Part shown: positions 284 through 48,666 of the stretch, in pieces | Layout: each line of letters starts with the position of its first letter | Numbering within the stretch: position 1 is the first letter of the stretch | From: Rhodocyclaceae bacterium | Lineage (GTDB): Bacteria; Pseudomonadota; Gammaproteobacteria; Burkholderiales; Rhodocyclaceae | DNA length: 53,158 nt | Assembly: GCA_006218025.1 (NCBI GenBank) | Contig: VBWA01000020.1 | Span: 1-53,158 of the forward strand | Reading direction: 5' to 3' | Position numbers and translations under genes: made by a program | Notes under the pieces: model-generated | Database searches by the model: none | The model's input: the letters and a program-made list of their open reading frames with translations, nothing else | What the model was told of the DNA's origin: nothing

Positions 284-1102
284 GTGCGCAGCGACTTTGC
301 CGGAGCTGCCGCATCCTACGACCCAGCCGCGGTCCTTGCCCGCGAAGTGGGCGCTCGCATGGCTGCGCGGCTCGATCTGGTCAAGATCGTTCCGCAGCGC
401 GTCGCCGACATCGGTTGTGCCACGGGCGACGGGATTCGCGAGTTGCAGCTGCGCTATTCGAAGGCGCAGGCGCTTGCCATTGACTACGCTTTGCCCATGC
501 TGCGCGCCGTTCGTAGTCGTACGCCTCGCCTGCAGCGGTTGACGGGACGCGGGCCGCGCCTGGTCAATGGCGACGTGCGTGCCTTGCCGCTGGTCGCCAA
601 TTCGCTCGGCCTGGTCTGGTCGAATCTGATGTTGCACTGGCTGGACGATCCGCTGCCTGCCTTGCGTGAATTGCATCGCGTGCTGGAGGTGGGCGGCCTG
701 CTGACTTTCGCCACGCTCGGACCGGATACGCTGAAGGAGTTGCGCGCGGCAGCCGTGGAAGTCGGCGCTGGCGATACGGTGAGGCGCTTTCTCGACATGC
801 ATGATCTGGGCGACATGCTGGTCGCCGCCGGCTTCGGCGATCCGGTGATGGACATGGAGATCATCACGCTGACCTACCCGACGCCGCGCGCCTTCCTCGC
901 CGACCAGCGCCATCTGGGCGTGCGCGACGCATTGCTGGGCCGCCAAGCCTGGCGCGACTGGCGCCGCCTGTTCGGCGCATGGCCGCAGCATGTCGACGGG
1001 CGGCTACCGGCCAGTTTTGAAATCGTCTATGGCCACGCATGGAAGCCGGAGCCGCGGCAGATCGCCGATGGGCGCGCCGTGGTGAAGTTCCATTCGCGAT
1101 GA
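284..1102 (+). CDS. bioC: Malonyl-[ACP] O-methyltransferase BioC
   Basis: SAM-dependent methyltransferase that methylates malonyl-ACP so that it can enter fatty-acid synthesis as a disguised pimelate precursor in biotin synthesis. The class I methyltransferase motif I is visible as VADIGCATGDG, followed by motifs around ALAIDYALPML and NGDVRALPL, then WSNLMLHWLDDPLPAL and FLDMHDLGD, which are typical of BioC. The start is uncertain: a GTG at 284 sits just after the bioB stop, while an ATG at 236 would overlap bioB and add 16 residues without family resemblance. Placement after bioB supports the biotin role. A copy of the dispersed GTCGGCGCTGGCG motif lies at 761, where the protein reads VGAGDTV just before FLDMHD. 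Confidence 0.88.
   Translation: MRSDFAGAAASYDPAAVLAREVGARMAARLDLVKIVPQRVADIGCATGDGIRELQLRYSKAQALAIDYALPMLRAVRSRTPRLQRLTGRGPRLVNGDVRALPLVANSLGLVWSNLMLHWLDDPLPALRELHRVLEVGGLLTFATLGPDTLKELRAAAVEVGAGDTVRRFLDMHDLGDMLVAAGFGDPVMDMEIITLTYPTPRAFLADQRHLGVRDALLGRQAWRDWRRLFGAWPQHVDGRLPASFEIVYGHAWKPEPRQIADGRAVVKFHSR
761..783 (+). repeat. Dispersed GTCGGCGCTGGCG motif, copy in bioC
   Basis: GTCGGCGCTGGCGATACGGT plus GAG, in the coding orientation, read as VGAGDTV. Confidence 0.6.
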
Positions 1103-1260
1103 AACGGGCCAGGCAGCGGCTGCTACGGTCCATCAAGCCGCGCAATCCGCTGGCAACCGATCCTCTGCTGAAAAAGGGCGGCGCCCACCAGCGGCAGGAC
1201 AAGCGGGCCAGCCGGGCGCGGCAGAAAGCCGCCTTGCGGCGCAGCACTGACGAGACCTGA
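1099..1260 (+). CDS. Small basic conserved-looking protein of unknown function
   Basis: Fifty-three residues, very rich in Arg and Lys, with a central segment RNPLATDPLLKKGGAHQ. Its ATG overlaps the bioC stop in an ATGA arrangement, which suggests translational coupling. It is followed by a strong terminator, so it would be the last gene of the bio operon. I recall short proteins with an RNPL..PLL+KGGAH pattern in other betaproteobacteria but cannot name a function. There is no signal peptide or membrane segment; the charge suggests nucleic-acid or ribosome binding, which is only a guess. The longer frame opening at 1039 is not favoured because it runs through the end of bioC. Confidence 0.6.
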   Translation: MKRARQRLLRSIKPRNPLATDPLLKKGGAHQRQDKRASRARQKAALRRSTDET

Positions 1261-1285
1261 TTAGGGCCGAATTTTTGGCGGACAC

Positions 1286-1334
1286 AAGACCGCCGGCAGG
1301 GGAGAACATTCCCCTCCCGGCGGTCTTTCATTTT
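1286..1334 (+). terminator. Rho-independent terminator after the bio genes
   Basis: Inverted repeat AAGACCGCCGG...CCGGCGGTCTT with an inner CAGGGG/CCCCTC stem and a 6-base loop, followed by TTTCATTTT. It separates the bio operon from the pyruvate dehydrogenase promoter. Confidence 0.85.
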
Positions 1335-1355
1335 GCGACTGTGGAAATCCACAGA

Positions 1356-46541: not shown

Positions 46542-46559
46542 GCAATCAGTCCGCGCCCA

Positions 46560-47294
46560 TTGAAAGCCATGATTCTCGCGGCTGGGCGCGGCGAACGCAT
46601 GCGCCCGCTCACGGACCGCATTCCAAAGCCCTTGCTGCCGGTCGGCGGCAAGCCCCTGATCGTCTGGCATCTGGAGCGCCTGGCGCAGGCCGGACTGCGC
46701 CAGGTGGTGATCAATCACGCGCATCTTGGCGGACAGATCGAGGCGGCGCTCGGCGACGGCGCACGCTGGGGCCTGTCGATCCGCTATTCGGCCGAACCCG
46801 AAGGCGCGCTGGAAACTGCCGGCGGCATCGCCAACGCCCTGCCGCTCCTCGGGTATGAAGATCCGTTTCTGGTCATCAACGGCGACATCTATTGCGACTG
46901 GGACGTGGCGCGGGCTCTGGCCGCGTTGACCGCTACCGGTCTCGCGCATCTGGTGCTGGTGCCGAATCCGCCGCACCATCCGCGGGGCGACTTCTCCCTG
47001 ACGGGGATGGAAGTCGGCGGCGACATCACGGCGGCGGGCGCGCAGGTGTGCACTTTTTCCGGCATAGGCATCTATCGCCCGCAACTGTTTGCCGACATCC
47101 GGCGCGGCGAGCGCGCACAGCTGGCGCCGTTGCTGCGCGCGGCGATGGCGGCGCGAAAAGTTAGCGGAGAACTGCATGCGGGCCGCTGGACCGATGTCGG
47201 CACGCCGCAGCGGCTGGCCGAACTCGATGCCGAGCTCGGCTCGCTATCCCACCAAGGGATACCGTCCCCGATGCAGGAGCATGGGGACATATAA
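46560..47294 (+). CDS. murU: N-acetylmuramate-1-phosphate uridylyltransferase MurU
   Basis: Makes UDP-MurNAc from MurNAc-1-phosphate, the step after AmgK, bypassing fosfomycin-sensitive MurA. 244 residues. Nucleotidyltransferase signature [23 protein letters not shown] at the start. A TTG start at 46560 gives the conserved MKAMILAAG; the ATG at 46569 would trim three residues. The last 20 residues ([15 protein letters not shown]) are beyond the usual end and come from a GGGATACCGTCCCC repeat, so the tail looks acquired. Confidence 0.92.
47256..47287. repeat. GGGATACCGTCCCC repeat at the murU end
   Basis: GGGATACCGTCCCC at 47256-47269 also occurs, nearly the same, at 34881 and 34949. Its GTCCCC pairs with GGGGAC at 47282-47287 to give a hairpin across the last murU codons, which may act as a weak terminator or translation barrier. 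Confidence 0.6.
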
Positions 47295-47301
47295 TCACTC
47301 G

Positions 47302-48666
47302 ATGGAAACGTCGACACCATCGTCACCCGCGGTCGGAAATTCTTTCGAGGCGTATCGCCAGCGCCGACTTGCGCTGATCGAACGCATGACCCGCGGCGGC
47401 GGCGGTATCGCGTTGATCCCCACCTCGCCCGAGCAGCCGCGCAATCGCGATTCGCACTATCCCTATCGCGCCGACAGCTACTTTCAATACCTGACCGGCT
47501 TCACCGAACCCGAAGCGGTGCTGGTAATCGTCGTTGGCCGCGGCGACACGGCGCCGCAGTCGATCCTCTTCTGTCGCGAGAAGAACATGGAGCGGGAAAT
47601 CTGGGACGGCTTCCGCCATGGTCCGGACGGCGCCCGCGACGCTTTCGGTTTCGACGCCGCCCATGCCATCGGCGAACTTGACGCCAAGCTGGCGGAACTG
47701 CTCGCCGACCGGTCCGTGCTGTGGTTTTCGATAGGCCAGGATGCCGGCTGGGATAACCGCATCGCCGCCGCGCTGAACCGCGTGCGCGCCGAGAGCCGCA
47801 GCGGAAAGCACGCGCCGGCAATTATTCGCGATGTGCGCGCCGAGCTCGATGCCATGCGTCTGGTCAAGGATGCCACCGAACTCGACATCATGCGCCGCGT
47901 CGCTACGATTTCGACGGGCGCCCACAGCCGCGCCATGCGCTTTGTCGCGCCAGGCCGTTTCGAGTACGAAGTCGAGGCCGAACTGCTGCACGAATTTCGC
48001 CGGCAGGGCTGCGAATTCCCTGCCTATACCTCCATCGTCGCCGGTGGGCCCAATGCCTGCGTCCTGCATTACGTCGGCAACGATCAGATCCTGCGCGATG
48101 GCGATCTGCTGCTGATCGATGCCGGCGGCGAACTCAACGGCTACGCCTCCGACATCACGCGCAGCTTCCCCGTCAATGGCCGCTTCAGCGGGCCGCAGGC
48201 CGATGTGTACTCGCTGGTGCTAGACGCTCAGGCGGCGGCGATCGCGGCGGTGCGTCCCGGCGCCACTTTCGCCGATCCGCATGAGGCGGCGCTGAAGGTG
48301 CTGGCGCAGGGCATGATCGACCTGAAGCTGCTGTCCGGAACGCTGGACGCCGCGATCGAATCGGAAAGCTACAAGCGCTTCTATATGCACCGGACCAGCC
48401 ACTGGCTGGGCAAGGACGTGCACGATGCCGGCGAATACAAGGCAGGGGAGAACTGGGCACCGCTGGCGCCCGGCATGGTGCTGACCATCGAGCCCGGCTG
48501 CTACATCCGTCCGGCAGACGACGTGCCCAAGGCGTTCTGGAATATCGGCGTGCGCATCGAGGATGATGCAGTGGTGACGGCCGACGGCTGCGAGATCATC
48601 ACCGACGCCGCACCGAAGAAGATCGCCGACATCGAAGCGCTGATGCGAGATGGGCGTGGCGGCTGA
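47302..48666 (+). CDS. pepP: Xaa-Pro aminopeptidase P
   Basis: Mn-dependent peptidase releasing N-terminal residues next to proline; 454 residues. N-terminal creatinase-like domain (RRLALIERM, IPTSPEQPRNRDSHYPYRADSYFQYLTGF) and pita-bread domain with metal ligands in LLIDAGGELNGYASDITRSFPV, HRTSHWLGKDVHD and TIEPGCYI. No RBS precedes the ATG at 47302; expression may rely on coupling to murU, 7 bases before. An antisense-oriented copy of the dispersed motif is at 47351. Confidence 0.95.
   Translation: METSTPSSPAVGNSFEAYRQRRLALIERMTRGGGGIALIPTSPEQPRNRDSHYPYRADSYFQYLTGFTEPEAVLVIVVGRGDTAPQSILFCREKNMEREIWDGFRHGPDGARDAFGFDAAHAIGELDAKLAELLADRSVLWFSIGQDAGWDNRIAAALNRVRAESRSGKHAPAIIRDVRAELDAMRLVKDATELDIMRRVATISTGAHSRAMRFVAPGRFEYEVEAELLHEFRRQGCEFPAYTSIVAGGPNACVLHYVGNDQILRDGDLLLIDAGGELNGYASDITRSFPVNGRFSGPQADVYSLVLDAQAAAIAAVRPGATFADPHEAALKVLAQGMIDLKLLSGTLDAAIESESYKRFYMHRTSHWLGKDVHDAGEYKAGENWAPLAPGMVLTIEPGCYIRPADDVPKAFWNIGVRIEDDAVVTADGCEIITDAAPKKIADIEALMRDGRGG
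47351..47368 (-). repeat. Dispersed GTCGGCGCTGGCG motif, antisense copy in pepP
   Basis: Minus strand GTCGGCGCTGGCGATACG preceded by CAA, identical to the bioC and cbbY copies over 18 bases. On the coding strand it reads YRQRRL, a conserved stretch of PepP. Confidence 0.55.

Follow-up and report, generated by a model that had tools for sequence, protein, structure and literature searches.

Genomic context and form of the motif

The DNA analyzed here, called the window at its full length of 53,158 nt, is contig 33 of the 4.44-Mb genome of a Rhodocyclaceae bacterium that belongs to the genus Sulfuritalea by its kin. Dispersed over genes for a BioC-like methyltransferase, pyruvate dehydrogenase components, several further enzymes and the spacers between them, the window carries copies of a motif of about 27 bp, whose copies are also referred to as tags and which we regard as a probable DNA uptake signal.

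The initial annotation of the window had described eleven copies of this motif. All eleven were found at their positions, each with at most 4 mismatches to the 23-mer AGTCGGCGCTGGCGRNACGGCGA, against which motif copies were scored (Table 1). The identity of the copies in cbbO (20764, plus) and the DUF2189 gene (32011, minus) over at least 23 bases was confirmed. One copy had been placed between genes; according to the present gene calls there are two such copies (18945-18971 and 47346-47372) rather than one. With the 13-mer from the inner part of the motif, 12 matches with at most one mismatch were obtained in the window compared to 0.68 expected from dinucleotide shuffles. Ten of them correspond to previously described copies, the copy at 6424 having 2 mismatches in the 13-mer and hence falling outside this count. 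The remaining matches, located at 17418 and 39643 (minus), do not have the ACGGCGA tail and were not accepted as motif copies.

Table 1. Motif copies in the window, scored against the 23-mer, and one degenerate site
Feature	Position	Strand	Mismatches	Context
Motif copy	757..783	+	1	BioC-like methyltransferase gene, frame VGAGDT; substitutions and linker indels at the orthologous site in relatives
Motif copy	4443..4469	+	3	linker-like part of aceF, which encodes pyruvate dehydrogenase E2; frame VGAGGT
Motif copy	6420..6446	+	2	lipoamide dehydrogenase gene, stretch ahead of the dehydrogenase match
Motif copy	13631..13657	-	0	gene with C-terminal match to RsmE 16S rRNA methyltransferase, frame VGAGDTAI
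Motif copy	16304..16330	+	2	haloacid dehalogenase (HAD)-family hydrolase gene; VIGAGDVV-type peptide there in several relatives
Motif copy	18945..18971	+	1	between tandem genes (present gene calls)
Motif copy	20760..20786	+	0	774-aa gene, cbbO according to the initial annotation; without NCBIfam match
Motif copy	31989..32015	-	0	antisense; gene with below-cut-off match to BPSS1780 membrane protein family (DUF2189 in the initial annotation)
Motif copy	38903..38929	-	4	TIGR03862-type flavoprotein gene, frame VGADAT
Motif copy	40968..40994	-	3	pdxA, frame KSALAGR
Motif copy	47346..47372	-	3	intergenic (present gene calls)
Degenerate site	8173..8199	+	6	near background; relative G007 has a motif copy in a similar stretch (correspondence by eye)

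A profile built from 101 matches (47 of them exact) in 452 kb of the same genome gave the consensus RARA-GTCGGCGCTGGCG-RNACGGCGAY. The profile seed fixes the inner 13 positions, and the outer positions are independently informative: next to exact seeds, the preceding A is present in 96% and the bases of the following ACGG in 87-98% of the cases. Beyond the block of about 27 bases both flanks are near background and without extended homology. The consensus is hardly palindromic, with a best self-overlap of 12 positions, and open in all six frames (read by eye).

Abundance relative to null models

In the complete genome the 13-mer is matched 873 times with at most one mismatch (461 forward, 412 reverse), compared to 60 matches (34 + 26) for the reversed control. 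The 23-mer is found 70 times in the 452 kb; 16 of these copies are exact, 31 have one mismatch and 23 have two. At the same threshold of 2 mismatches there are 51 copies in coding sequence of the 452 kb, whereas a mean of about 1.2 was obtained after synonymous-codon randomization and 0 after shuffling the codon order within genes (50 replicates each). For the whole 452 kb, 10 replicates of an order-5 Markov model likewise yielded 0 copies. Thus, codon or peptide bias is ruled out as the cause, in agreement with the initial annotation, which had argued from the differing peptides and had proposed beforehand a comparison of the genome-wide count with the expectation from codon usage and composition. 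Since the coding count of 51 stands against about 1.2 and 0 in the codon models, the abundance lies far above this expectation; the original observation was correct and understated.

Distribution, dialects and erosion

Among named sequences, full-motif matches come mostly from Sulfuritalea or from Rhodocyclaceae and Rhodocyclales metagenome-assembled genomes (MAGs), as judged from the 80 matches listed out of at least 113. The genus name rests on the genome of locus L057, which is labelled Sulfuritalea sp. and whose integrase places coincide with those of G022, a member of the genus. Within the genus, 27 of 30 further genomes have at least 406 matches to the 13-mer, the exceptions being G016, G021 and G025 with 190, 294 and 350, respectively. 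In samples of these three genomes the tag density is 0.31, 0.77 and 0.80 per 10 kb compared to 1.95 in the genome of the window. No replacement word was evident in the samples of the eroded genomes. As a separate observation, the word AGAGGCGCAGAG is over-represented in the samples of G016 and G025, where it was seen 6 times versus 0.01 and 0.02 expected.

At the level of the family, at least 200 copies of the 23-mer (up to 3 mismatches) are present in 21 of 199 genomes, which fall within 6 of 68 genera. Three more genomes (G098, G076 and G109) have 61, 44 and 22 copies, and the remaining ones 0-17, with at most 4 for the reversed controls. Outside the family, none of 386 genomes of the same order has more than 6 copies. 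In samples of six other genera (18-80 kb with 5-13 copies each) the motif takes genus-specific forms; for example, G061 has GTCGGtGCTGG, G098 has GTCGaCGCTGG, and the ending is ACGGCa in G177. G061 also carries copies with the C form, and the counts and places in G613 are identical to those in G061. Thus, the motif is limited to one family, in which it occurs as genus dialects and shows nested erosion.

The nesting was seen in a midpoint-rooted tree of a single gene product, AceE, from 46 genomes, which were labelled as rich, intermediate or poor from the 23-mer counts or else from the 13-mer counts. All 21 rich-labelled rows fall together in one supported clade, whose 29 members also include 3 intermediate and 5 poor ones, and the eroded G016 is nested beside a rich species (97/92). 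We read this distribution as suggestive of an old origin followed by repeated erosion. G098 with its own dialect is located outside the clade of the rich genomes and may represent a separate origin or a transfer. Finally, G135, G108, G109 and G368 have few copies overall, with some good ones clustered (by eye), as if tag-bearing DNA had been acquired.

Placement in the genome and relation to replication

Placement was analyzed with a simple custom gene caller in 852 kb from the genome of the window and from the single-contig relative G002, which contain 169 copies at a limit of 4 mismatches. Of this DNA 90.4% is coding and 9.6% non-coding, and 53 copies are entirely intergenic, 115 lie inside genes and 1 spans a boundary. 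Convergent spacers contain 12 copies in 6.4 kb, tandem spacers 27 in 41 kb and divergent spacers 9 in 14.8 kb; 5 intergenic copies are at the edges of stretches. Although convergent spacers are thus richer than tandem ones, nearly no inverted pairs of the terminator type were found, and this explanation was discarded.

The coding copies occupy all six frames unequally, 56 of 115 being in the VGAGxTA frame, as expected if the protein has to tolerate the tag. With 85 copies on the plus and 84 on the minus strand, the occurrence in both orientations and several frames, already described in the initial annotation, was borne out.

To map strand use relative to replication, as the initial annotation had proposed, 20 evenly spaced 20-kb stretches of G002 were assigned to chromosome halves by GC skew. 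In 17 of the 20 stretches (three near the switch points were excluded) the two halves have 16 plus and 18 minus versus 16 plus and 20 minus copies, so that neither these stretches nor the overall strand counts show a strand bias. Two of the sampled stretches are free of copies. One of them contains rpoB, rpoC, fusA and tuf, which speaks against mobile islands as the reason and makes protein constraint the better reading there.

These data bear on the possibility that the motif is the binding site of a cytoplasmic protein that organizes, segregates or repairs the chromosome, i.e. a nucleoid-associated protein or a system similar to Chi, the FtsK-orienting polar sequences (KOPS) or matS. Hundreds of sharply bounded copies of 27 bp at about one per 5 kb, with few close pairs and restricted to one lineage, are compatible with such a protein. 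However, the missing strand skew between the replichores argues against signals of the KOPS or Chi type, and a replication-linked signal was therefore dropped. Chi, KOPS and matS are also shorter, and they are positioned or skewed. Genus-specific dialects, the extensive loss of the motif in some species nested within the genus and the presence of copies in integron-like arrays and phage-type genes (see below) also fit poorly to a chromosomal binding site, which we consider unlikely.

Variation at orthologous sites

The gene order of positions 1-20000 of the window is largely preserved across the genus. Copies with up to 2 mismatches were compared in this one 20-kb region among 19 genomes, so that the numbers represent pairwise, non-independent comparisons of few sites. 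Before counting, 311 comparisons were excluded, 255 because of a missing flank and 56 because of an odd flank distance. Of the 607 alignable pairs, 325 align without gaps and retain the motif with at most 3 mismatches, 83 align without gaps at a degraded motif, 196 are partly gapped and 3 have a clean gap in place of the motif. By eye, many of the partly gapped pairs fall in the linkers of aceF and lpd, which are rich in indels. Also judged by eye, 16 of 18 relatives retain the site at 13653 fully or almost fully, and in G016 and G021 it is degraded by substitutions. The alignment of flanks in relatives, which the initial annotation had also suggested, thus reveals variation by substitution and rarely clean insertion.

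This result is evidence against remnants of a self-inserting short mobile element, for example of the repetitive extragenic palindromic (REP), miniature inverted-repeat transposable element (MITE) or Rickettsia palindromic element (RPE) type. The dispersal of the copies in both orientations, their intergenic enrichment and the consensus open in six frames would be in line with an inserted sequence, and in the first three respects the motif resembles REP sequences with their associated RAYT transposases and other short dispersed elements. In contrast to these elements, the motif is hardly palindromic and insertion-type differences between orthologs are rare; the clean gaps number 3 in 607 pairs, alongside the 83 ungapped degraded and 196 partly gapped ones, and the flanks lack extended homology. 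An insertion element is therefore disfavored and appears very improbable to us.

Phage-type DNA and integron-like arrays

An exact 21-mer of the motif was found in at least 120 stretches of viral collections. On these viral-labelled contigs, which were chosen for holding a copy, the density of non-ascertained copies is 0.43 per 10 kb (120 matches listed), about threefold lower than the values of 1.15 and 1.30 obtained for two samples of host DNA. Seven of ten scanned open reading frames (ORFs) at motif sites match a PHROG family, including 3'-phosphoadenosine 5'-phosphosulfate (PAPS) reductase, DNA methyltransferase and reverse transcriptase. The peptide KVGAGETA is common to a PAPS reductase-like and a methyltransferase protein, and in L261 the copy is at the extreme start of the ORF, before the PHROG match.

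A restriction, methylation or phage-defence mark common to host and phages would account for copies in phage-type genes, DNA methyltransferases included. Against it, the motif has about 20 conserved positions, to our knowledge more than the recognition sites of known methylases, its density is about three times lower on viral-labelled contigs than in hosts, and neither the enrichment at permissive sites nor the dialects would be explained; we hold such a mark to be very improbable as well.

In some loci the tags are arranged in integron-like arrays. In the viral-labelled contig L251 (positions 885-2240) five copies with a spacing of 316-385 bp lie between attC-like sites, one copy per repeat unit, and the one attC-like site that was folded gave a hairpin. 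The Sulfuritalea MAG contig JALHPU010000019.1 contains 10 copies (up to 3 mismatches) on one strand within 6.1 kb (L424:13698-19804, which includes L057). Two strict attC-like sites are inside this array, both forming hairpins, and an integrase was not found among the 7 ORFs adjoining it. In the genome of the window, three copies cluster within 0.6 kb (L435:11074-11631) about 3 kb past an integron integrase; a single attC-like site lies in between. Within each of the three arrays the tags have one orientation; cassettes were delimited in L251, while L424 and L435 are clusters near attC-like sites. Other sampled integrase loci have one copy (L436 in the genome of the window, and L437) or none (L438, whose genome uses another dialect). 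Among the matches listed, at least two strict attC-like sites occur together in one of the 113 named loci and in two of the 120 viral ones. Thus, the tag-rich integron-like arrays are a minority feature.

Comparison with known uptake signals and a probable function

Two systems of uptake signals served for comparison, and the parts of the publications considered here mention such signals for no families other than Pasteurellaceae and Neisseriaceae (PMC7811141, PMC5031613). For the uptake signal sequences (USS) of Pasteurellaceae, the section considered describes evolution by point mutation, a low abundance in new segments as well as in constrained genes, and a drive that needs no benefit (PMC7811141). 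The DNA uptake sequences (DUS) of Neisseriaceae are described, in the portions consulted, as forming dialects (PMC3630211), as residing in permissive regions of the core genome and as arising in many cases by recombination (PMC2397512).

As far as these excerpts go, our motif resembles DUS, which are read by the minor pilin ComP, in its hundreds to thousands of copies, its preference for permissive or intergenic sites, its dialects along the family tree and possibly the type IV pilus and ComEC machinery. It differs in length, DUS having 10-12 bp (GCCGTCTGAA) compared to about 27 bp, in being seldom paired closely and in the bacterial family. With USS, for which PpdA/ComN is the proposed receptor, it shares, by the same partial accounts, scarcity in constrained genes and a likewise long, extended motif of a core and side segments, probably also evolution through point mutations and perhaps scarcity in new DNA; USS, however, have AT-rich segments where the 3' part of our motif is GC-rich. 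In 452 kb of the genome of the window the main DUS 10-mer GCCGTCTGAA has 0 copies, and the USS cores AAGTGCGGT and ACAAGCGGT show no enrichment, with 1 and 2 copies versus 2 and 15 for the reversed controls. The tag word itself has no relationship to the main words of DUS and USS.

Since the motif matches the published traits of USS and DUS in most features, we take it as a probable genome-wide DNA uptake signal that would be read by a component of the type IV pilus during natural transformation. A third uptake-signal system, independent of those in Neisseriaceae and Pasteurellaceae, appears to us the best explanation of the combined data, the function and the receptor being inferred. Among the candidates listed in the initial annotation, an uptake-type sequence is thus favored, while a signal for chromosome architecture or repair lost ground with the missing skew and a REP-like remnant with the 3 clean gaps in 607 pairs. 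A pilus component exposed on the cell surface, most probably a minor pilin, would bind double-stranded DNA carrying AAAAGTCGGCGCTGGCGNNACGGCGA and pull it in. ComEC would then transfer one strand inward, where it could recombine. As tagged fragments would be taken up more often, uptake and recombination would push the tag toward the consensus wherever the context tolerates it, a process of molecular drive. If drive acts in this way within a tolerant protein or regulatory context, copies should build up in spacers, linkers and tolerant frames, and recombination would keep them there.

Regarding the machinery, ComEC has matches in 196 of 199 genomes of the family, 191 of them above the cut-off. 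Within the genus, 29 of 31 genomes have ComEC above the curated cut-off, the exceptions being G021 (85% complete) and G030 (79% complete). Pilins with the ComP_DUS domain (PF16732) are present in 30 of 31 genus genomes and in 55 of 61 relatives. Seven of 18 extracted pilins were aligned; all seven match PF16732 and have two C-terminal cysteines in common, whereas 3 of the 18 lack the two-cysteine C-terminal pattern. Neither ComEC nor the ComEA model nor the PF16732 pilin discriminates tag-bearing genomes, and none can serve as their marker.

Several findings weigh against an uptake signal. None of the genes tested tracks the motif: ComEC and the ComP_DUS pilin are equally common where it is absent, G016 has retained ComEC and a PF16732 pilin although its tags are eroded, the tag-rich G030 lacks ComEC above the cut-off at its completeness of 79%, and the ComEA model TIGR00426 is above the cut-off in none of the 31 genus genomes. 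Close or inverted pairs of tags are few, only 3 of 130 gaps between neighbours being shorter than 300 bp, and the 196 of 607 partly gapped ortholog pairs say little either way. Furthermore, phage-type genes carry copies in different frames and proteins (viral-labelled contigs L230, L304, L265, L289 and L256), and tags abound in some of the integron-like arrays, which are themselves mobile. No report of competence in Sulfuritalea was found in the literature, as judged by titles. Titles and the beginnings of abstracts also gave no report of uptake sequences in Rhodocyclaceae or Accumulibacter, in a search that left preprints and most subscription papers outside, and the papers listed among those found with the letters of the motif appear unrelated by title and start of the abstract.

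A more far-reaching proposal, which we advance tentatively and would not yet favor, combines two elements. The first is an independently evolved third system of sequence-specific DNA uptake, present with dialects in at least six genera of environmental Rhodocyclaceae and based on a strictly conserved tag of unusual length. The second is that integron cassettes are tagged in fixed orientation near attC and thereby marked for uptake, so that integrons and transformation would form one acquisition system. If the observation on the integrons holds, it would link transformation to the gathering of cassettes.

Both bacterial families with described uptake signals are known for members that live in animals and people as pathogens and commensals, whereas the present case is environmental. 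The tag would mark partners of DNA exchange in freshwater and groundwater communities. A third case with dialects, nested erosion and tag-less near neighbours would provide a comparative test of how a tag originates, what reads it and whether it can persist by drive alone. In the AceE tree, the eroded G016 and the rich G006 are neighbours and form a natural pair for finding the receptor.

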